Positions 1,032-11,247 of a stretch of 11,247 nucleotides of DNA are shown piece by piece. The position numbers were made by a program, and so were the translations under genes. Source of the stretch: Nitrospirota bacterium (GTDB taxonomy: Bacteria > Nitrospirota > Nitrospiria > Nitrospirales > UBA8639); assembly GCA_029879555.1 (NCBI GenBank), contig JAOUQB010000045.1:1-11247 (forward strand), in the 5' to 3' direction. Each line of letters opens with the position of its first letter. Position 1 is the stretch's first letter. The notes below the pieces were generated by a model. It saw nothing but the letters and a program-made list of their open reading frames with translations. It did no database searches and was not told where the DNA came from.

Positions 1032-1997
1032 TTGAACACACCAATAAGAGTAGGCCTCATTGGACTAGGACGTCACGGCAGTCGCTATCTCCATCATTTA
1101 CTCGATGAAGAAACCGGTGGCCAACTGGTCGCCATCAGCCGGCAACAAGAAGCCAAAGGCCGACAGCAGGCCGCTCACCACCACCTTCGATATTTCCCCG
1201 ACTATCGAGACCTGATCACCGCCCCCGACATCCAGGCGATCTTGGTCGTCACTCCACCTGCGTTGAATACTCAAATCGCCCTAGAAGCCATCGCACACCG
1301 AAAAGCTCTACTCGTAGAAAAGCCCTTGGCTGTGAATTCAGGTGAAGGAAGGTGCATCGTCGAAGCGTCCACCCAAGCCGGCGTCCCCTTCATGACAGGG
1401 CACACATTACGTTATGAACCCGTCATTCAAAAGATTCAGGACATGAGTAAAAGCGTGGGAACGTGGCAGTCCTTGAGCGGAACGATGCACCTAGAAGAAC
1501 GCCCCGAGACTTATCACAATCAGGAAGCCGGCCATGGCGTTCTTCTGGAATTCGGCATTCATCTGTTGGATTGGATACGAGTGATGCTACCCACAGAATC
1601 CCTCATTGTGTCGGCAAAGATGACATCCTCATCTCCGGGCACACCTGAAAAACAGGCCGAGATTACACTGACCACCCCTTCCGGTCTCTCCTGTCATGTC
1701 GAGATCGCCAGAGTACACACCAAACGGGTCACGCACATTGAACTTGTTGGCACAACAGGGCGCGTACGAGGTGATTGGACGAGTGGGCTAGTTCAAGTCT
1801 TTGCCCAGGAGCGCCTCATCTCTGAGGAAACGGTGCCGGCCACGCCCACTCTCGTGCCCATGCTCAAAGATTTTTTCCGGGCACTTCAAACAGGCCAACC
1901 GATGCCCATTACCGGGTTCGATGGACTACGCGCCGTGGAATTGGCTGAAGCCTGCCAAGAGGCGGCACAAACCGGGCAAAGGATCCGCGTGAAGTGA
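1032..1997 (+). CDS. Gfo/Idh/MocA-family NAD(P)-dependent oxidoreductase (321 aa)
   Basis: The N-terminus carries the dinucleotide-binding fingerprint VGLIGLGRHGSRYL (GxGxxG at residues 11-16). The family hallmark EKP is at residues 96-98 (LLVEKPLAVN), and EFGIHLLDW at about 173-181 supplies the histidine and aspartate of the catalytic region. Known members oxidise or reduce hydroxyl groups of sugars, inositols or related small molecules with NAD(P); the substrate cannot be read from the sequence. The length is at the short end for the family but both domains appear complete. The start is a TTG with AGGA (1021-1024) seven bases upstream; no better ATG start precedes the Rossmann motif. There is no export signal, so the protein is cytoplasmic. 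It lies 60 bases after the methyltransferase-like gene and converges on the leftward gene that ends at 2013. Confidence 0.9.
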   Translation: MNTPIRVGLIGLGRHGSRYLHHLLDEETGGQLVAISRQQEAKGRQQAAHHHLRYFPDYRDLITAPDIQAILVVTPPALNTQIALEAIAHRKALLVEKPLAVNSGEGRCIVEASTQAGVPFMTGHTLRYEPVIQKIQDMSKSVGTWQSLSGTMHLEERPETYHNQEAGHGVLLEFGIHLLDWIRVMLPTESLIVSAKMTSSSPGTPEKQAEITLTTPSGLSCHVEIARVHTKRVTHIELVGTTGRVRGDWTSGLVQVFAQERLISEETVPATPTLVPMLKDFFRALQTGQPMPITGFDGLRAVELAEACQEAAQTGQRIRVK

Positions 1998-2012: not shown

Positions 2013-2693
2013 TTAAGACGTCCCACCTGGCACTTTCATCTGCCACCCCTGATACACTTTGTACAACGATCGCCCCTGACCACGAAACACCGTTTCGGCT
2101 TGTTGGAAAAGATCAACCATCAGATCCCAATCGGCACGCGTCACATTAAATTCCTGCAGGGCGAAGGCTAGCTTCTGATCCTCCCAGAGGGAATGCTCCT
2201 GATCATAGGCAATAAAAGCCCCCAACACTTTCGCGGTTAAGCCCCGGCCTTTTGCCTCTTCTGCGACGCTTTCGGCATGTTGGTTCTGCCAAAAACGATC
2301 AACTGCCACTTGATAAGCCGCGAACTCTGGTGAAGTCGATTTCATCACAGCCGATTGCAATTGGATCACACTGTGGATTATTTGATTGGCTTGCGAGGTT
2401 CCCTCAGGCGGCAACACCCCCGCCTCTTCCAGCGTGGCCAATAAGGCCATGATGGTGCCAACGGCAGAGGAGCTAGCGCGTGCCGATGTCGTAATTTTTT
2501 GAAATTGAGGAAACCCGAAACGTGCAGTTCTCCCCTCTGCATGCACCAAGGCTGTGCTTAGCCCACCGATCTCGCTAGAGCGGAGAACTATCACCAGCGT
2601 CAGCACAATCAGCACACAGATACTCCTCCAACAACTCCTCTGTCCGCCGCGAAAGACGCGACCAGAAAATCGCTCTACTTGGGTTGTTTCCAT
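2013..2693 (-). CDS. Membrane-anchored or secreted protein of unknown function (226 aa)
   Basis: Not recognised. A basic N-terminus is followed by a hydrophobic segment at about residues 24-37 (SICVLIVLTLVIVL). This could be a signal anchor, or a long signal peptide cleaved near VHA-EG at residue 52. The remainder has no cysteines or catalytic motif that I can name and looks largely helical, with many Q, A and E residues. The C-terminal half contains repeated aromatic-acidic stretches such as FIAYDQEHSLWEDQKLAF and ADWDLMVDLFQQAE. The body is therefore expected outside the cytoplasm. The ATG has a close GAAGG upstream. The gene is divergent from the methyltransferase at 2748 with only 54 bases between, so the promoters must be packed there. 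It ends 15 bases from the convergent oxidoreductase gene. Confidence 0.7.
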   Translation of the reverse strand: METTQVERFSGRVFRGGQRSCWRSICVLIVLTLVIVLRSSEIGGLSTALVHAEGRTARFGFPQFQKITTSARASSSAVGTIMALLATLEEAGVLPPEGTSQANQIIHSVIQLQSAVMKSTSPEFAAYQVAVDRFWQNQHAESVAEEAKGRGLTAKVLGAFIAYDQEHSLWEDQKLAFALQEFNVTRADWDLMVDLFQQAETVFRGQGRSLYKVYQGWQMKVPGGTS

Positions 2694-4617: not shown

Positions 4618-5511
4618 ATGACACCTGTATCGTTACAGCATGTATTCCAAGGCCCTGCGATGGGGCTTCTATTAGCCATGACCCTGTTAACTGGGTGTGA
4701 AACGAATCCCTACACGGGCCGTTCACAACTGTTGATGGTGTCCGCTGACCAAATGAACCAGATGGGCGCCACGCAGTATGGAGAAGTACTCAAAGACCCT
4801 AAAGTGGTTATTTCGAAAAACCCTCAAGAAATCGAGCCGGTCAATCGAGTAGCCAAACGAATTATAGAGGCAGCTAAGCGATCAAAATATGCCGAGGCGG
4901 CCAAGGCCTTTGAGTGGGAAGTGACCGTCATCAAAGATGATGCGACCAAAAACGCGTGGGCGATGCCTGGAGGAAAGATTGCCGTGTACACCGGGATTTT
5001 TCCCATGGCAAAGGATGAGGCTGGGCTCGCGGCGATTATGGGCCATGAAGTGATTCATGCTCTCGCGCAACATGGAGGAGAGCGAATGAGCCATGGGGTG
5101 ATCGCCCAGGCAGGGTTAACAGTGAGCAACATTGGCCTGGCAATTCTCGGCGTGGACCCCGCGCTCAATCAACTGGCCATGGCCGCCTTAGGTGCGGGAA
5201 CGCAAGGTCTGGTACTGTTGCCGTTCAGTCGAAAACATGAATCAGAAGCTGATTATGTGGGCCTTCTTCTAGCTGCTGATGCTGGGTATGACCCACGAGA
5301 GGCCATCCATATTTGGGAACGCATGGCGGCGGCATCTGAGGGAGCTCCACCGGAGTTTATGTCCACTCATCCGTCTCATGAAACACGGATCAGTGATCTT
5401 AAGCGTTGGATGCCCGAGGCGATGGCCATTTATGAAGGTGCTCCGAAAGCGGCTTCAGCTCCATTACCTCAGGTTACTCCGTCTCCGTCCTCTTCTGCCA
5501 AGCCAAATTAG
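4618..5511 (+). CDS. M48-family zinc metalloprotease lipoprotein (297 aa)
   Basis: The N-terminus is a lipoprotein signal peptide: hydrophobic residues 15-24 followed by the lipobox LTGC with the acylated cysteine at 27. The zinc site is HEVIH at residues 143-147 within GHEVIHALAQHGG, and the third ligand is the first glutamate of ESEAD (208-212), as in M48 peptidases. The region NPYTGRSQLLMVS after the cysteine and the STHPSHETRISDLKRWM segment near the C-terminus are typical of bacterial periplasmic M48 lipoproteins of the LoiP/BepA type, which act in outer-membrane protein quality control. All catalytic residues are present and the length is normal. The proline- and serine-rich tail (280-297) is probably disordered. 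The gene stands alone: a long gene-poor stretch precedes it and convergent genes follow. Confidence 0.93.
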   Translation: MTPVSLQHVFQGPAMGLLLAMTLLTGCETNPYTGRSQLLMVSADQMNQMGATQYGEVLKDPKVVISKNPQEIEPVNRVAKRIIEAAKRSKYAEAAKAFEWEVTVIKDDATKNAWAMPGGKIAVYTGIFPMAKDEAGLAAIMGHEVIHALAQHGGERMSHGVIAQAGLTVSNIGLAILGVDPALNQLAMAALGAGTQGLVLLPFSRKHESEADYVGLLLAADAGYDPREAIHIWERMAAASEGAPPEFMSTHPSHETRISDLKRWMPEAMAIYEGAPKAASAPLPQVTPSPSSSAKPN

Positions 5512-5548: not shown

Positions 5549-5703
5549 TTGAAAATTGCCCGTATAGAACCGAAAAAATTCCAGCAAGGCCACGACTGGC
5601 ATGGCTCATCCGGAAGAGTGACACTCTGGTTTTGCTCGCGGAGCATACTTCCAGTACGTGAGCACGGGAAAATGGTGACGACGCCGCTGGCGGCTTTTTT
5701 CAA
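5549..5703. repeat. 155-base structured intergenic element with imperfect terminal inverted repeats
   Basis: The ends TTGAAAATTGCC (5549-5560) and GGCTTTTTTCAA (5692-5703) are inverted copies matching at 10 of 12 positions. Inside are GCCA-CGAC-TGGC (5589-5600), AGAGT-GAC-ACTCT (5615-5627), and a longer stem of GCTCGCG with CGTGAGC closed by TACT-TCC-AGTA (5634-5663, 11 pairs including one G-U, with a 5-base bulge). The right end is the GC-only stem at 5683-5694 followed by six Ts. From memory, sequences like TTGAAAAAGCCGCCAGCGGC recur between genes in Nitrospira and related genomes, so I infer a dispersed REP- or MITE-like element. No target-site duplication is evident. Confidence 0.5.
5683..5700 (+). 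terminator. Candidate intrinsic terminator downstream of the M48 protease
   Basis: GCCG-CTGG-CGGC is followed by six Ts (5695-5700). The stem has only 4 pairs, all G-C. It lies about 170 bases after the protease stop codon, on the correct strand, and coincides with the right end of the structured element, so the element may carry its own terminator. Confidence 0.4.
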
Positions 5704-5775
5704 CAGGCCCACTGAAGAAATTCTAGCTTCTCGAGCCCCCTAACAGCACACTTCAAGAAAGTACGTTGGAAGGCT

Positions 5776-5793
5776 CCCAGCAGTTTTGCTGGG
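5776..5793. terminator. Hairpin at the end of the cytochrome operon, possible terminator
   Basis: CCCAGCA (5776-5782) and TGCTGGG (5787-5793) form a perfect 7-pair stem with a 4-base loop, touching the stop codon of the cytochrome gene that ends at 5794. Read leftwards it lacks a T run. Read rightwards it is followed by a T-rich stretch (TTACTTCTTTTT). It may work better against rightward transcription or simply protect the operon's 3' end. Confidence 0.4.
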
Positions 5794-7038
5794 TTACTTC
5801 TTTTTCAGCAGCACGTTCGTTTTTTTCTGGGCGATTTCGACGATTTGGAAGGCACGGTCCTTTTGACCAAGAGGGGCATCCTGCTCCACTTCCTTCAAGA
5901 AATCTTGGGGACCATGAACCGGCGCATAGGTAAGGGTGACGATCACATCCATGGACGGCGCATCTTTGGGGGTGGGGAAGGTGAAGACTTCTTTGCGGGT
6001 TTCTTCCGGCTGGAGCAGAGTGTCTTGTAACACTTTTTTGGCTTCAAAATCGAAGACGGTTTCTTTCCCATCCCCGCCGCCAAACACTCGTTGATAAAAC
6101 CGTTGTTCATTATAGACGGTTTTCAAGTTTTTCCCCTTAATGGACAGATCGACGACGATTCTTGACCATCCAGGATGGGGCATCGGCAGGTTATGGGGTA
6201 CGAGACTTTTAATGGAGACATCCACCTGAGACGTCGCTCCATTGACGGTCGTGGAAAAATCGAGTTCAACCGCGTCCGCTCGAACTTTCCCAAATCTTCC
6301 AGGGAAACTATGGTTCGCCACTTTCCGAATCTTTTCGCCATTGGCTGATTCATCAACGGCTTCGGGCATATGGCAGGCCTGGCAGGGCTTGCCACTTGTT
6401 TCGGCTTGAGAGGCCTTCCAATCTCCCAACCAACCAGGGAGGTCCTTCGCTGTTTGTGGGGTCTGTGGCAAGGAATCATGACAGGTGACGCAGAGCTGTG
6501 AATTCCTAAAGAGGTCAAGCTTTTGGGATTGATGCGCCAAGTTTTCAGCCGCCTTATCGTAACTCCCAAAAATTGTTTTGCCTAATTCAAAGGTGGGTAT
6601 CGGGGGGTGAGACGCGGCATCCACCTCATGAATTAAATGACATTGGGGACAGCCCACACCATCCATCTGCGGATCCTTGGATTGCACTTCTTTGATGAAC
6701 TGGGGCAAGAGCTCTCCATATTCAGCAATATGTGGAGCATGGCATTGAAAACACATGGCCTGATCTTTTTTATCAGCTTTGGCCAAATACCGTTCTAAGG
6801 TGATACGGAATGGAGCAGAGACGATTGACCGGGATTGTGCCGATGCTTCCCATTCTTCAAAAACCCGGAGATGACAACGTTTACATTTTTCTGAGCTCGG
6901 AAAGGCCTTTTCCAGTGGCTTTTTAGCTGCCCATGTTGAAGATATCCCCAAAGCCAAAACCGTGAGCACCAGGATGCTCCCCATGACGGCCAAAATTGGC
7001 CTGGCTGATAGCGTTGGTTTTTGTATTGTCTTATCCAT
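5794..7038 (-). CDS. Pentaheme cytochrome c, membrane-anchored or secreted (414 aa)
   Basis: Five CxxCH heme-attachment motifs are at residues 52-56 (CKRCH), 96-100 (CFQCH), 130-134 (CPQCH), 183-187 (CVTCH) and 219-223 (CQACH). A hydrophobic segment at about 15-37 ends in TWAAK, so it is a signal peptide or anchor and the hemes lie in the periplasm. Histidine 243 in ANHSFPG and the histidine in ENLAHQS (about 165-171) are likely distal heme ligands, because both motifs recur in the neighbouring paralog. After residue 260 there are no hemes; the region is beta-rich (VDVSIKSLVPHNLPMPHPG) and looks like a separate sandwich domain. The arrangement resembles cytochrome c554-type electron carriers. 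AAGGA stands 8 bases before the ATG. It is the last gene of the leftward operon, 57 bases after its paralog. The electron partner is unknown. Confidence 0.9.
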   Translation of the reverse strand: MDKTIQKPTLSARPILAVMGSILVLTVLALGISSTWAAKKPLEKAFPSSEKCKRCHLRVFEEWEASAQSRSIVSAPFRITLERYLAKADKKDQAMCFQCHAPHIAEYGELLPQFIKEVQSKDPQMDGVGCPQCHLIHEVDAASHPPIPTFELGKTIFGSYDKAAENLAHQSQKLDLFRNSQLCVTCHDSLPQTPQTAKDLPGWLGDWKASQAETSGKPCQACHMPEAVDESANGEKIRKVANHSFPGRFGKVRADAVELDFSTTVNGATSQVDVSIKSLVPHNLPMPHPGWSRIVVDLSIKGKNLKTVYNEQRFYQRVFGGGDGKETVFDFEAKKVLQDTLLQPEETRKEVFTFPTPKDAPSMDVIVTLTYAPVHGPQDFLKEVEQDAPLGQKDRAFQIVEIAQKKTNVLLKKK

Positions 7039-7095
7039 GAGCCGGTTCCTTTAATATGAAGCCTTGAGACTTGGGCAAAGACGGTGCTCCCAAAA

Positions 7096-8421
7096 CTATA
7101 AATTCATCGTCCGGAACGTCAGCAACCGTGGCGACGAATAATCTTGAATAATGGCTTCGGCCTTCTCACGATCCTTGTCCGTGGGTAGGGTGGCCAGATA
7201 TGCGGCCTTTAGCTCTTCCGTCGGAGTGGGAATTAAGGCATAACTCAAAGCAGCTTCCAACACCAATCCTTTGGTTTCCAATGACGATTTCAATGAAAAA
7301 GGAATGTGCCGCGTTGTTCCTCCATTCACCAGAGGCCGGGGAATCGGTCCCCGCAACAATTCTTCAAACGTCTTTCCAAACCGCTCTTCATATTGATCGA
7401 CAATTTGTCCATCTTCCGTTTTAAGCGTGACCGTCACAAAAAACTGCTTCAGAACCGGGTCTCCTCCAGGAAAAGAATGCGGAAGTGCTCCATTTTTCAC
7501 GAGCACTTCACCTTCAATCACGCCTTGACCAGGCTTCACGTCAATATCAACACGAGAAAACCATTCGGCCTGGAGGTTCCGGTTACTCAGCATGATTCCT
7601 GGAATAACAATGCCTTGGAACCAATGCCGCCCAATGGGCCGGGTTAAGGCTCCCCGTTGGGATGTCGAACTCCCAGTTGATTGTTCCATATGGCAATCCT
7701 GGCAAATGGTCCCTTTGAGAATTTCACCTGGTATATCTTCCCGCATGACATCTTTGACTTTGCCAAAGTGGCAAGAGGCACAATAGTGGGCGCCTTTATA
7801 AACATCAGCCTGTTTCGAAGGATGGACCAGATTTTCATCTGGCTCGGCGTAGGGACCAAAGATCGTCGCCCCCGCAGAAATTTTAAACGTCGGGTGTCCA
7901 TTCGGATTGTCTTGGGTCCCAGAAATCAAATGGCAGGCACTACAACTGATCCCTTCAACGGTGACATGCTTTCTGCCCTTCATCACCTGCTCAATAATTC
8001 GATCAGTATGCTGAGGGAACACCGTAACCGACGGGGCATGACACGAGAGACACCGATTCCGTTGATCGGCATCTGGTTTGGTTTGGAGCCATAGACCCAG
8101 GACAGTTTGGAACACCGGCGAAGTCAGCGCAGTGCCATGCAACAGGGCGCCATCCACCCGACCAAAGGTTTTGAGATCCATGGTTTGCTCACGCATGCCC
8201 TTCCATTCTTCATAATGGCGGTCATGGCATTGCTTACATTGCTCAGAGGGGATAAACGTCTGTTCAATCTCTTCAATCCAGGTTTGGTCGGCTTCAGCAA
8301 CCGCTGACTCGCCTTGCGCTCTGACGATTCCTACCAGACTGAGAACCAGGACGAGGCTCCCAAGCCAAACGATTGGTGGGTTCCATCTCCATACCGTTGG
8401 ATGAGCAAATCGGTTCAACAT
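7096..8421 (-). CDS. Pentaheme cytochrome c, paralog of the downstream cytochrome (441 aa)
   Basis: With the ATG at 8421 as residue 1, CxxCH motifs are at 62-66 (CKQCH), 124-128 (CLSCH), 160-164 (CSACH), 214-218 (CASCH) and 240-244 (CQDCH). A signal peptide with core WLGSLVLVLSLVGIV ends at VRA-Q, near residue 35. The protein shares with its neighbour SE-C-CH followed by a YEEW/FEEW box, a TIFG-Y-ENL-H-S box and an HWFQG/HSFPG box, as well as a heme-free C-terminal domain containing ALPHSFPGG. A longer reading from a TTG at 8454 would overlap the preceding PDZ gene by 23 bases and add residues ahead of a clean signal peptide, so I prefer the ATG; neither start has a strong ribosome-binding site. 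It probably passes electrons in the periplasm, with the heme-b protein encoded upstream as a possible partner. Confidence 0.9.
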   Translation of the reverse strand: MLNRFAHPTVWRWNPPIVWLGSLVLVLSLVGIVRAQGESAVAEADQTWIEEIEQTFIPSEQCKQCHDRHYEEWKGMREQTMDLKTFGRVDGALLHGTALTSPVFQTVLGLWLQTKPDADQRNRCLSCHAPSVTVFPQHTDRIIEQVMKGRKHVTVEGISCSACHLISGTQDNPNGHPTFKISAGATIFGPYAEPDENLVHPSKQADVYKGAHYCASCHFGKVKDVMREDIPGEILKGTICQDCHMEQSTGSSTSQRGALTRPIGRHWFQGIVIPGIMLSNRNLQAEWFSRVDIDVKPGQGVIEGEVLVKNGALPHSFPGGDPVLKQFFVTVTLKTEDGQIVDQYEERFGKTFEELLRGPIPRPLVNGGTTRHIPFSLKSSLETKGLVLEAALSYALIPTPTEELKAAYLATLPTDKDREKAEAIIQDYSSPRLLTFRTMNL

Positions 8422-8431
8422 TGGTAGGTCA

Positions 8432-8917
8432 CTAATCTTGCAAAATCCGAACAAAATGAAAATTCAATCCGCCAGTGACACCCACGCCACTCATCGGTTC
8501 ATAAGTAGCGACCGTAAAATTTGGCGTGGACATGGTCTTTTCCAACGCATTTCCCAAATCGACCAAGGTCCGAATTTCAAAAATATCAACTTCTTTAATG
8601 ACCGCTTTGACTTTGATGCCAGATAATTCGGCAGGCGAACCCCCGATGACCGCAAAGACCACCACGCCTTCGGCCTTGTTCAGGCCAAGAAGCTCCTTAA
8701 TTTCTTCATCAACTTCTCCTACGTCCACACCGAACTTCTCCGCAAGCTGGATCGCCTTTTCTGCCGTCATGGGGCTAACCGCATTAGGGTCCGACTCAGG
8801 GGTGGTAGCGAGACCTGTATGGGCGAATAAGATACACCAGAGGACCAGCAGGAACATGATGGTAGCCTGCTTGGTAGACCTCCGACCAACCTCTTTTTTA
8901 ATAGCATCCTCTCGCAT
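8432..8917 (-). CDS. Small secreted PDZ-domain protein (161 aa)
   Basis: Residues 19-37 (hydrophobic core IMFLLVLWCILF, then GLA) form a signal peptide or anchor. Residues about 75-140 fit a PDZ domain: LLGLNKAEGVVVFAVIGGSPAELSG is the carboxylate-binding loop, strand and SPA-G turn seen in HtrA-type PDZ domains, followed by VIKEVDIFEIRTLVDLGNALEK. There is no protease domain and no heme motif. PDZ domains of this class bind protein C-termini, so a scaffold or assembly role for the neighbouring periplasmic redox proteins is a reasonable inference. The ATG overlaps the upstream stop codon in TAATG (8915-8919), implying translational coupling to the heme-b gene. It ends 10 bases before the preferred start of the first cytochrome gene. 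Confidence 0.8.
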   Translation of the reverse strand: MREDAIKKEVGRRSTKQATIMFLLVLWCILFAHTGLATTPESDPNAVSPMTAEKAIQLAEKFGVDVGEVDEEIKELLGLNKAEGVVVFAVIGGSPAELSGIKVKAVIKEVDIFEIRTLVDLGNALEKTMSTPNFTVATYEPMSGVGVTGGLNFHFVRILQD

Positions 8918-9849
8918 TATGAACCACTCTTATTGTTGACCACCGGATCGATTTGCAGTTGCATCCACGAGGCCACGGCCTTCTGTCCATTTCGCTCTTT
9001 GTTCTCCCCATTCCAAACGGCAAAGGCAATGGCTTGTAGGCGACCAGGAATCAGCATCGCCTCATTCTCCAGGTCATCTCCATCGACAGTCAGAGGCCGT
9101 TTCATCACCAGCCGCCAGAGTCCCCGTTTCCACTCTGCTTGGCCTTTAATGCGTCCTTGCCGTTCCTTACTGGTCAAGGTACTGAATCCGCCTCCGATCA
9201 GATCCTCCACTGAAGACGGTCGACGTGGGATGACTTCAAATCGACGTGGGCCTTTTCGTTCCCGCTTAGATTCCTGAGCGCGGGCTTCTCGGCGATCCAC
9301 GTCGCTTTGCCAATCCGCTTTCCAATGCCAGATATTCACATAATGGTCTAACTGTCCCATACAAAAGAAGGCTGGTGCATCGCCAACCGGAAGCGCCACC
9401 GCCGCACCATCCCTAAACACTCCAGGCGTGAGCGATTCATTGACTGTGGCATCCTGCCATTCCATTAAAAATGCGACCTCTTTCCCATTGTGAATCGACC
9501 GGATCGATAACGCACGGACACTCGGTTCTGGCCAGACAGGCCGAGTAATAATTTGTCCGCTCAGGGGAAGCGGAAGCGGTGAGACTTTCTCCCACGCTGG
9601 ATCCGATGGATGATCAGGCACCTCCCCTTCTTGATAATGCGCGCGAACGACCATGCCCTGTGAACTCACTAATGGCACTTCGTACCAAGTTAAGCCAGAG
9701 AGCAGAACTAAACCCATCACGCCCCACAACCACAGTGGCTGCATCAACAGTGCGTTGATCTGATTGAGTGCCTTATTCAAATTAAAGAACCCTTTGGATA
9801 TCTCTTTACCCAACTCATTTGATGGAAACATAGATTTTCGATAGGCCAT
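8917..9849 (-). CDS. Heme-b gamma-subunit-like protein (ethylbenzene dehydrogenase-type heme-binding domain), membrane-anchored (310 aa)
   Basis: The domain resembles the heme-b gamma subunits of type II DMSO-reductase-family enzymes (ethylbenzene dehydrogenase, selenate and chlorate reductases, nitrite oxidoreductase NxrC). With the ATG at 9849 as residue 1, APAFFCMGQ places a methionine at 164 and HYVNIWHWKADWQ follows at about 169-181. GQKAVASWMQLQ has a lysine at 290. Met and Lys are the heme ligands in EbdC, and these two fit by position. No CxxCH is present. A hydrophobic segment at about 38-55 follows some 37 polar residues, unlike a simple signal peptide, so it is probably a membrane anchor with the heme domain in the periplasm. 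TTG codons at 9858 and 9855 are alternative starts; AGGG lies upstream. It heads the operon, but no catalytic alpha or iron-sulfur beta subunit is encoded in the window. Confidence 0.82.
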   Translation of the reverse strand: MAYRKSMFPSNELGKEISKGFFNLNKALNQINALLMQPLWLWGVMGLVLLSGLTWYEVPLVSSQGMVVRAHYQEGEVPDHPSDPAWEKVSPLPLPLSGQIITRPVWPEPSVRALSIRSIHNGKEVAFLMEWQDATVNESLTPGVFRDGAAVALPVGDAPAFFCMGQLDHYVNIWHWKADWQSDVDRREARAQESKRERKGPRRFEVIPRRPSSVEDLIGGGFSTLTSKERQGRIKGQAEWKRGLWRLVMKRPLTVDGDDLENEAMLIPGRLQAIAFAVWNGENKERNGQKAVASWMQLQIDPVVNNKSGS

Positions 9850-10070
9850 ATTCAACAATACCCTGCCCCATCCCGGACAATGCTATGACTGTCATTTCAT
9901 CTTACCATTTTCAATTGAGAGAACGCATAATCGAGATGACCATCCCCACATAGAATAGAAAGATTTCGAAAGTTGAGAGAAAAGGGGTTCACGGAAAAGA
10001 AGAGGGAGTCGACGATTGTGACAACAGCCACAGAAATTTGACGAATTGGTCATTCAAGGAGTGGGGAGGA
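9850..10070. other. Intergenic region upstream of the heme-b/cytochrome operon
   Basis: This stretch of about 220 bases should hold the operon promoter on the minus strand. I see no convincing -35/-10 pair and no sigma54 GG/GC pair with correct spacing. TTGAAA on the minus strand (about 9910-9915) has no good -10 partner. No strong terminator for the upstream NHL gene is visible either, so read-through from it is possible. Confidence 0.4.
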
Positions 10071-11247
10071 CTATCCCAATTTCACTCGTCGAATTTTATT
10101 TTCATTACGCTCACAAATATATAAATGCCCTTGGGAATCCAAGGCTAAGCCAGACGGCGTATTCACGATCGCCTCTGTGGCCAACAGACCATCTCCATGC
10201 TTCAACATGCCGGCGTCTTCTTTCGCCACAAAGCGAGCAGCCCCACAGCCACCCATATTTTTGTCATCATACCCACTGTCTCCATTGCCCACGACAGTGG
10301 TAATAATGCCTGTCTTGGCATCCACCTTTCGTATCCGGTGATTCATGGAGTCGGAAATATAGACATGTCCTTCTTCGTCTACCACCGCACTTTCCGGAAC
10401 ATTCAACATCGACTGGACGGCCAACTTCCCATCCCCATCAAACCCAAATCGACAAACTCCAGCTATGGTAGAAACCAGACCCGTTTTCATGTCGATTTTT
10501 CGTATGCGATTGGTGCCCTTATCCGTCAAGTACAGGTCGCCTTGGCGATCGATATCAATACCGACCACATCATAAAACTTACATTCCGTCGCAGGCTTTC
10601 CATCATCAAGATAAAGATCCAAATCCAATCCATCGGAGCACTTCGGACGCAACAATCCTTCGTCGTTACTGAAATCGATTCCAATTGCATCGCCAGACAA
10701 CACAATGAGGTTTTGCGCGGTTAACGGACTGATTCGCTCATCATCTTCATCCGTCCAACAACCACCAATCGTCGTTACGAGACCCGTTGCAGTATCATAT
10801 TTTCGAATACGATGAGCTTGCGTATCGGCAATGTACAGACAATCATGGCTGTCAAAGACAATGGCGGCTGGATAGGTGAGATTGACCTCTAATCCTGGAC
10901 CGTCCCCATTAAATCCCCATTGTCCAGTACCCACCACTGTTGTAATAATTCCAGTTTCCGCATCGATTTTCCTGATTCGGTTACTCCCAGAATCACAAAC
11001 ATAAAGATTATTTTTTGAATCACAGGCTACATCCAAAGGGAGATACAATCCTGCTTCAGCACAAGGGCCATAATCACCGCTATAGCAGGTTTCCCCGGTT
11101 CCGGCGAAATTATGGAGGAGGCCAGTTTCCATATCAACTCGACGAACCCGGTCAGAACCACATTCGGCAATGTAGAGGTATCGCCCTTCTCGATCAACGG
11201 TGACCTGGTTCGGAAGTGGAATACCGGCTTTAACCGCACGCTTGCCA
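10071..11247 (-). CDS. NHL-repeat beta-propeller protein, 5' end beyond the right edge (391 aa visible)
   Basis: Six NHL-type repeats are visible. Each has the pattern (D/S)xxGxLYxxDxxxxRIRKxDxxTGxxTTxxGxG; examples are NLYVCDSGSNRIRKIDAETG, CLYIADTQAHRIRKYD, DLYLTDKGTNRIRKID and HVYISDSMNHRIRKVD. The last one (HLYICERNENKIRRV) ends the protein. The frame stays open to the window edge above the methionine at 11132: codons there encode LYIAECGSDRVRRVD, another repeat, so that methionine is internal and the gene is partial. Between the third and fourth repeats (about 10560-10750) is an atypical acidic insertion with cysteines (DLDLYLDDGKPATECK). NHL propellers usually bind proteins or other ligands; no catalytic residues are recognisable. 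It lies upstream of the heme-b operon on the same strand, about 220 bases away. Its cellular location is unknown because the N-terminus is missing. Confidence 0.88.
   Translation of the reverse strand, partial: GKRAVKAGIPLPNQVTVDREGRYLYIAECGSDRVRRVDMETGLLHNFAGTGETCYSGDYGPCAEAGLYLPLDVACDSKNNLYVCDSGSNRIRKIDAETGIITTVVGTGQWGFNGDGPGLEVNLTYPAAIVFDSHDCLYIADTQAHRIRKYDTATGLVTTIGGCWTDEDDERISPLTAQNLIVLSGDAIGIDFSNDEGLLRPKCSDGLDLDLYLDDGKPATECKFYDVVGIDIDRQGDLYLTDKGTNRIRKIDMKTGLVSTIAGVCRFGFDGDGKLAVQSMLNVPESAVVDEEGHVYISDSMNHRIRKVDAKTGIITTVVGNGDSGYDDKNMGGCGAARFVAKEDAGMLKHGDGLLATEAIVNTPSGLALDSQGHLYICERNENKIRRVKLG

Follow-up and report, generated by a model that had tools for sequence, protein, structure and literature searches.

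What could a heme-b protein of gamma-subunit type accomplish together with a PDZ-only protein and a pair of five-heme cytochromes c when no gene for a catalytic subunit lies beside them? The question is raised by contig JAOUQB010000045.1 of a Nitrospirota bacterium, whose genome comprises 3.2 Mb in 605 contigs; “the window” denotes this entire contig (C356) of 11,247 nucleotides. A preliminary description of the window took its four leftward genes for a possible electron-transfer module in its own right. According to our analysis, the set is the nxrC_1 operon (nxrC_1, PDZ, cytA and cytB) of a nitrite-oxidizing Nitrospirales bacterium, and it belongs to an already known gene cluster, NITMOv2_3614-3631 of Nitrospira moscoviensis.

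The identification starts from the heme-b protein, which carries the EB_dh domain (PF09459, 87.2 bits against a cut-off of 33.3) and matches, in the PDB, the NxrC of Kuenenia (7b04_C, E 3.9e-25) followed by EbdC (2ivf_C, E 1.6e-13). The presumed ligands Met167 and Lys293 occupy the Met and Lys positions of EbdC-type gamma subunits, as previously described, and are invariant in all 80 orthologs compared, which come from 80 loci representing the best 80 of 242 relatives, chosen by heme-b similarity. In the nitrite oxidoreductase (NXR) of Kuenenia, the heme ligands are Met155 and Lys305 (PMC8387239; this and all other papers are cited from excerpts). From the 80 loci, 76 cytA, 71 cytB and 52 NxrC_2 open reading frames (ORFs) were kept, and alignments A1-A3 hold 26, 27 and 26 rows including the window. 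The ligand positions of the NxrC_2 ORFs show Met in 49 of 52 cases (three gaps) and Lys in all 52.

In locus L083, that of N. moscoviensis, the heme-b product counted from an ATG has 30.8 kDa and NxrC_2 has 34.2 kDa; these values equal the published ones of nxrC_1 (NITMOv2_3617) and nxrC_2 (NITMOv2_3624) (PMC6606698). Because these masses and the gene order agree with published nxrC_1, the heme-b gene is an ortholog of N. moscoviensis nxrC_1, the NITMOv2 locus tags having been assigned to the L083 genes from masses and gene order. A gene of the nxrC_1 group should lie between an NHL gene and a PDZ gene, and heme-b has the former upstream in 79 of the 80 loci and the latter next to it in all 80. 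The NCBIfam subfamily model TIGR03477 scores the heme-b protein below its cut-off (140.9 versus 169.85 bits). The same shortfall is seen for N. defluvii NxrC_2 (145.9 bits), which corresponds to a published gamma-subunit candidate, and this cut-off was therefore not used for exclusion. A plasmid search with heme-b returned eight distant records (26-30% identity).

The observation of a compact, co-oriented four-gene set is confirmed, and its first interpretation is partly supported. All four genes lie on the minus strand and are closely spaced: TAATG joins the heme-b stop and the PDZ start in a one-base overlap, 10 nt separate PDZ from cytA, and 57 nt separate cytA from cytB (Table 1). Export or anchor segments had been described for all four products, and a hydropathy scan places the strongest hydrophobic stretch of each at its N-terminus. 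The start codon of heme-b is uncertain (ATG at 9849, TTG at 9780 or ATG at 9744), and for cytA an upstream TTG at 8454 is likewise in open frame. The NHL gene upstream of heme-b had been omitted from the described gene set.

Table 1. Features of the nxrC_1 operon and its upstream neighbour in the window.
Feature	Position	Strand	Basis
Heme-b gamma subunit (nxrC_1 ortholog)	8917..9858	-	EB_dh; 7b04_C match; Met/Lys ligand positions; mass match in L083
Codon of presumed heme-b ligand Met167 (numbered from TTG at 9858)	9358..9360	-	Aligned with NxrC MGDRQ and EbdC MGATG
Codon of presumed heme-b ligand Lys293	8980..8982	-	RNGQK aligned with Kuenenia RNGQK and EbdC RSGRK
PDZ-only protein, N-terminal hydrophobic segment, no protease domain	8432..8917	-	DegP/HtrA PDZ matches; AlphaFold2 model; 80/80 loci
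Cytochrome A (CytA), five CXXCH, C-terminal beta domain	7096..8421	-	ATG start; ortholog-level match in 97/98 genomes of the order
Cytochrome B (CytB), five CXXCH, homologous to CytA	5794..7038	-	ORF; CXXCH count; profile comparison
NHL-repeat gene, 5' end cut by contig end, conserved-cluster member upstream of heme-b	10071..11246	-	PF01436; 79/80 loci

That the four genes rarely occur together, an outcome which would have counted against the preliminary description, proved false. Heme-b, PDZ and cytA are found in the same order and on the same strand in 80 of 80 loci, of which 78 bear names of the Nitrospira group (Nitrospira, Nitrospirales, Nitrospirae and so on) and two (L038 and L044) are labelled Nitrospinota. 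A cytB match follows cytA in 74 loci, and the remaining six loci end at most 202 bases past cytA. Conservation extends upstream beyond the NHL gene: among the 45 loci with at least 9.9 kb of upstream sequence, matches to a tetratricopeptide repeat (TPR) gene, a gene for a 401-residue protein of unknown function and a B12-type radical SAM (rSAM) gene were found in 44, to NxrC_2 and TorD in 42, and to a NapG-like ferredoxin and a 343-residue protein of unknown function in 41. Two loci (L053 and L071) lack NxrC_2, TorD, the ferredoxin and the 343-residue protein, and one (L041) lacks the latter two. On chromosome CP070743.1 (L021), NHL, heme-b, PDZ, cytA and cytB stand without any of these further genes, TPR, rSAM, NxrC_2 and TorD included, with 10 kb upstream covered.

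A 2025 paper reports that the cluster NITMOv2_3614-3631 is conserved among nitrite oxidizers of the Nitrospirales and expressed in N. moscoviensis. Besides NxrC and TorD, it encodes two putative pentaheme cytochromes, a two-component system and proteins of unknown function, and several of its genes are among 140 proposed as diagnostic of nitrite-oxidizing Nitrospirales (PMC12342949). The window thus largely shows what the preliminary description had named as speaking against it, an operon already described whose catalytic subunits are encoded elsewhere, and the module idea is mostly superseded by the nxrC_1 identity and the published cluster. In the excerpts of open-licence PMC papers on nitrite oxidizers, we met with no assigned function for the operon and no mention of the PDZ gene.

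Whereas adjacency was counted in the 80 loci, the taxonomic range was assessed by presence in 295 Nitrospirota genomes that had not been selected by operon, 98 of them, including the window's own, from its order and 197 from elsewhere in the phylum. CytA was matched at E <=1.7e-86 in 97 of the 98 order genomes and in none of the 197 others (best other match 2.6e-20). The same numbers were obtained for heme-b at E <=1.1e-111, three outsiders giving weaker matches (1.7e-45 to 5.9e-41, 35-39% identity). Two genomes of one genus without a strong heme-b match (G011 and G012) have contigs that start inside cytA and run into cytB. Both heme-b and cytA are kept in small genomes (for example G184 with 1.7 Mb and G180 with 1.8 Mb), and in the distant family f3 (G301, contig C213; perhaps NS-4) heme-b (16707), cytA (18079) and a cytB-like match (19350) follow in order.

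A gamma subunit of NXR should share its genome with NxrA and NxrB, and both are encoded here. On contig C427 of the same genome, a 3' fragment of nxrA (residues 734-1155, 87% identity) precedes a complete nxrB (93%), and a further contig of 4.3 kb (C195) carries TorD, NxrC_2 and rSAM. The described lack of catalytic subunits therefore holds for the window and not for the genome; likewise, no alpha or beta gene was found in the flanks within the window, whereas past cytB in N. defluvii (G074, L074) H+-pyrophosphatase, RecJ and RelA/SpoT genes lead, after about 11 kb, to an nxrA-nxrB pair. Nor is the gamma-like protein an orphan, as it had been called, since Nitrospira nxrC genes are as a rule separate from nxrAB (PMC6606698, PMC8115632). 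Across the survey, TIGR03479 proved too unspecific a probe for NxrA, matching 288 of 295 genomes, and was therefore replaced by the N. defluvii NxrA protein, which at 1e-60 matched 84 of the 98 order genomes and 12 outsiders (39-42% identity). Examples of NxrA-negative genomes of the order are G129, G146 and G188, the first being a single contig with NxrB.

The two cytochromes were rightly described as five-heme proteins: five CXXCH motifs are present in 75 of 76 cytA ORFs (the remaining one has a single motif) and in all 71 cytB ORFs. Further histidines are conserved above 95% at five positions of CytA and four of CytB. A profile comparison shows CytA and CytB to be homologs (E 1.1e-43 across 324 columns), and both score with the ExtKL model NF040886, CytB at 100.1 and CytA at 53.8 bits, under the curated cut-off of 250. 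The CytB profile matches MccSep (9wt8) at E 1.7e-10, whereas the CytA profile gave no match to 9wt8 at 0.01, so that the link of CytA to MccSep runs via NF040886 and CytB. Judged by sequence, CytA and CytB are distant relatives of the ExtKL/MccSep cytochromes. In MccSep the selenocysteine, which is the residue altered in mutant U325A, stands within H-S-I-P-D-G-U-P. Its position is taken by Asp in 76 of 76 CytA ORFs (window codon 7459-7461) and by His in 70 of 71 CytB ORFs (window codon 6175-6177), the other one being without the motif. An AlphaFold2 model of mature CytA (406 residues) reached a mean predicted local distance difference test score (pLDDT) of 58.4, with 189 residues, mostly in the heme part, below 50; because the C-terminal domain alone is usable in this model, we claim no heme geometry.

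Genome G001 has a second cytA-cytB pair, at 57% and 61% identity (L134, 13621-16325; G001:C1, about 4437.6-4440.3 kb). Its genes overlap by four bases, a second NxrC_2-like gene is located at a distance of about 8 kb, and neither a heme-b NxrC_1 nor a PDZ gene occurs within the 19 kb read. Among eight loci outside the order (L140-L147), the selenocysteine motif was seen in one: a Nitrospirota pentaheme cytochrome (L140; G239:C86, 1324-2583) carries a TGA in frame where MccSep has its selenocysteine, within P-H-N-V-P-D-G-U-P, and looks like an ExtKL-type selenoprotein. Two others (L145 and L146) have five CXXCH without the motif, and the remaining five contain no open frame with three CXXCH on the scanned strand.

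The PDZ protein (161 residues) gave no Pfam match at 0.01. Its sequence is matched by the PDZ regions of DegP/HtrA proteins, and its AlphaFold2 model (pLDDT 89) consists of one PDZ-like domain that fits PDZ structures of DegP and the HtrA family. The trypsin-like protease domain of the HtrA/DegP proteases was found neither among the sequence matches nor in the model, which bears out the description as PDZ-only. MamP, a magnetosome cytochrome with a PDZ domain, is among the lower-ranked structural matches. As a possible PDZ ligand we considered the conserved C-terminal tail of CytA, which is of the R-L-L-T-F-R type and ends in Leu or Phe in 68 of 76 ORFs. We rejected it as evidence, since the other eight bear one to six extra residues and since, in the CytA model, residues 397-405 of the tail form the final beta strand of the C-terminal domain (in a block of pLDDT 81-87); its conservation is explained by its belonging to the fold of this domain.

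What, then, might the operon do? We put the chances at about even that NxrC_1 is an alternative NXR gamma subunit linking the enzyme to CytA and CytB as an electron side branch. NxrC_1 would likely dock on NxrA-NxrB encoded at other loci, where its Met/Lys heme b could take or give electrons and exchange them with CytB or CytA; the two cytochromes might form a joint ten-heme relay to a further periplasmic or membrane partner, the PDZ protein likely keeping the partners together. Multi-histidine cytochromes are usually of low potential. As the nitrite/nitrate couple lies at +420 mV (PMC8387239), such hemes lead us to favour a side branch over the main path to the oxidase; it might serve reverse flow, redox balancing or the reduction of nitrate by NXR. 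In Kuenenia, electrons reach the heme b of NXR-C and must exit to another binding partner (PMC8387239), and different NxrC forms have been proposed to serve different acceptors and so to split electrons (Luecker 2013, PMC3578206). Under nitrite oxidation, nxrC_1 transcripts amounted to 354 reads per kilobase per million (RPKM), near the 486 and 311 RPKM of nxrA_1 and nxrB_1 (PMC6606698). Also in favour of this assignment are the gene order conserved across the 80 loci, the range in the survey together with retention in small genomes, the nxrA fragment and nxrB of this genome, the matching masses and the invariant ligand positions.

Several observations weigh against this assignment. In the same transcriptome, nxrC_1 lies 57-fold below nxrC_2 (PMC6606698), so that NxrC_1 is not the main gamma subunit, and the nitrite-oxidizer literature, in the excerpts cited, shows no physical interaction for NxrC_1. 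The second cytA-cytB pair of G001, which stands without heme-b and PDZ, implies that the cytochromes need not act with NxrC_1. Moreover, 14 of the 98 order genomes hold heme-b and cytA without an NxrA match at 1e-60 (12 of these also without NxrB at 1e-40, with NxrB in the other two), the 12 outsiders with an NxrA-like protein have no ortholog-level cytA, and G200, an order member with 99% completeness, has NxrA and neither heme-b nor cytA at ortholog level. Finally, three of the 45 loci with sufficient upstream sequence lack NxrC_2 and TorD next to the operon. The NxrA gaps in the 14 genomes may reflect assembly collapse or real loss; missing NXR subunits in metagenome-assembled genomes have been ascribed to the assembly of near-identical copies (PMC12342949).

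Alternatively, CytA and CytB could themselves be a multiheme enzyme that reduces or oxidizes, for instance, a nitrogen oxide or another small oxyanion, and NxrC_1 would be the port for its electrons. We consider this unlikely, even though the relatives ExtKL and MccSep, some with selenocysteine, the Asp and His at the selenocysteine position and a match of CytB to cytochrome c554 would suit it, as would the G001 pair without heme-b. The four extra histidines of CytB fall one short of its five hemes, so that one heme may be open, whereas the five of CytA suffice to close all of its own; moreover, no substrate is known for either protein, and restriction to an NXR-bearing order fits service to NXR at least equally well. 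An operon for NXR assembly, in which NxrC_1 would be a placeholder or heme-b delivery form and the PDZ protein a chaperone-like adaptor working with TorD, rSAM, TPR and NHL, is slightly less likely again in our view. For it speak the shared conserved cluster with TorD, NxrC_2, B12-rSAM, TPR and NHL genes, the DegP/HtrA proteins as best matches of the PDZ domain and the scarcity of nxrC_1 relative to nxrC_2 transcripts; against it, two pentaheme cytochromes make an odd assembly tool and NxrC_1 has kept both ligand positions in 80 of 80 orthologs.

The original idea of a stand-alone electron-transfer module without molybdopterin and iron-sulfur subunits draws on the lack of a catalytic subunit gene in the window and the location of nxrAB on another contig. 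We judge it very improbable, because the same genome does contain nxrA and nxrB, the genes are restricted to an order with NxrA in 84 of its 98 sampled members, and separation from nxrAB is normal for Nitrospira NXR gamma genes. That the genes are chance neighbours with no joint role is practically negligible as an explanation: their order is retained in all 80 loci and also in family f3, a distant one, these counts already show synteny well above that of random gene quartets, and no supporting point was found.

A more specific form of the NXR side branch, which we hold tentatively and regard as somewhat unlikely, is that NxrC_1, PDZ, CytA and CytB give NXR a second, dedicated exit or entry for electrons. 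One core would swap gamma subunits, with NxrC_2 leading to the oxidase and NxrC_1 to the ten-heme relay, itself made of relatives of selenocysteine cytochromes, and the PDZ protein would act as clamp. If true, the operon would be hardware for dividing the electrons of nitrite among respiration and reverse flow, or for driving NXR backwards. For the partition of high-potential nitrite electrons in Nitrospira between oxygen reduction and uphill flow, it names concrete proteins for testing, and the partner of the NXR-C heme was left open in the Kuenenia work (PMC8387239). Novelty is limited because the cluster itself is already in print; the ExtKL/MccSep kinship, the Asp and His at the selenocysteine position and the second pair in G001 were not met with in the excerpts of open-licence PMC literature.

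Downstream of the operon, gene content varies. Among 53 loci with more than 4.5 kb past cytA, an H+-pyrophosphatase gene was matched in 24, a gene for a 226-residue protein of unknown function in seven, a GFO gene in seven and none of the three in 22. In the window, the 226-residue protein, which has no family match, is encoded at 2013-2693 (minus strand) and the GFO/IDH/MocA oxidoreductase at 1032-1997 (plus strand). An M48-family metalloprotease with BepA/LoiP-type matches (4618-5511, plus strand) faces the operon end. The intergenic sequence past cytB (5560-5730) is a member of a dispersed repeat family: parts of it are matched by 35 more segments of this genome at 73-97% identity, with a core of about 80 bases. 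Promoter and terminator scans of 5700-10100 remained near the counts for shuffled sequence (6 versus a mean of 3.6 and 8 versus a mean of 5.3, respectively).

Compared with known systems, the heme-b protein is of the same family as Kuenenia NxrC (7b04_C) and has the same Met/Lys ligand positions. In Kuenenia, however, nxrC belongs to the nxr cluster, and the NxrC protein co-purifies with NXR-A and NXR-B (PMC8387239), whereas the heme-b gene of the window stands apart from nxrAB. With EbdC (2ivf_C) it shares the EB_dh family and the ligand motifs, but it scores 64.1 bits with the EbdC model NF042980, whose cut-off is 400. CytA and CytB resemble ExtKL and MccSep in having a heme-binding N-terminal part and a C-terminal part with H-x-(I/L/F)-P-x-x-x-P; they differ in scoring far under the ExtKL cut-off and in the Asp or His that replaces selenocysteine. 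As NF040886 is named for a (seleno)protein, in which selenocysteine is possibly optional, the score is the main ground for not assigning them there. The pentaheme cytochrome c552 of Thermochromatium tepidum (5ze8) is matched by both cytochromes in sequence and is the best structural match of the CytA model, a weak likeness (template modelling score 0.24) obtained from a low-confidence model. Finally, the N. moscoviensis locus has TorD, nxrC_2, rSAM, TPR, NHL, nxrC_1, PDZ and the two pentaheme cytochromes in the same order, with best-segment identities to the window of 71% for heme-b, 48% for PDZ, 60% for cytA and 51% for cytB, and departs from it past cytB, where an H+-pyrophosphatase gene takes the place of the 226-residue protein and GFO genes.

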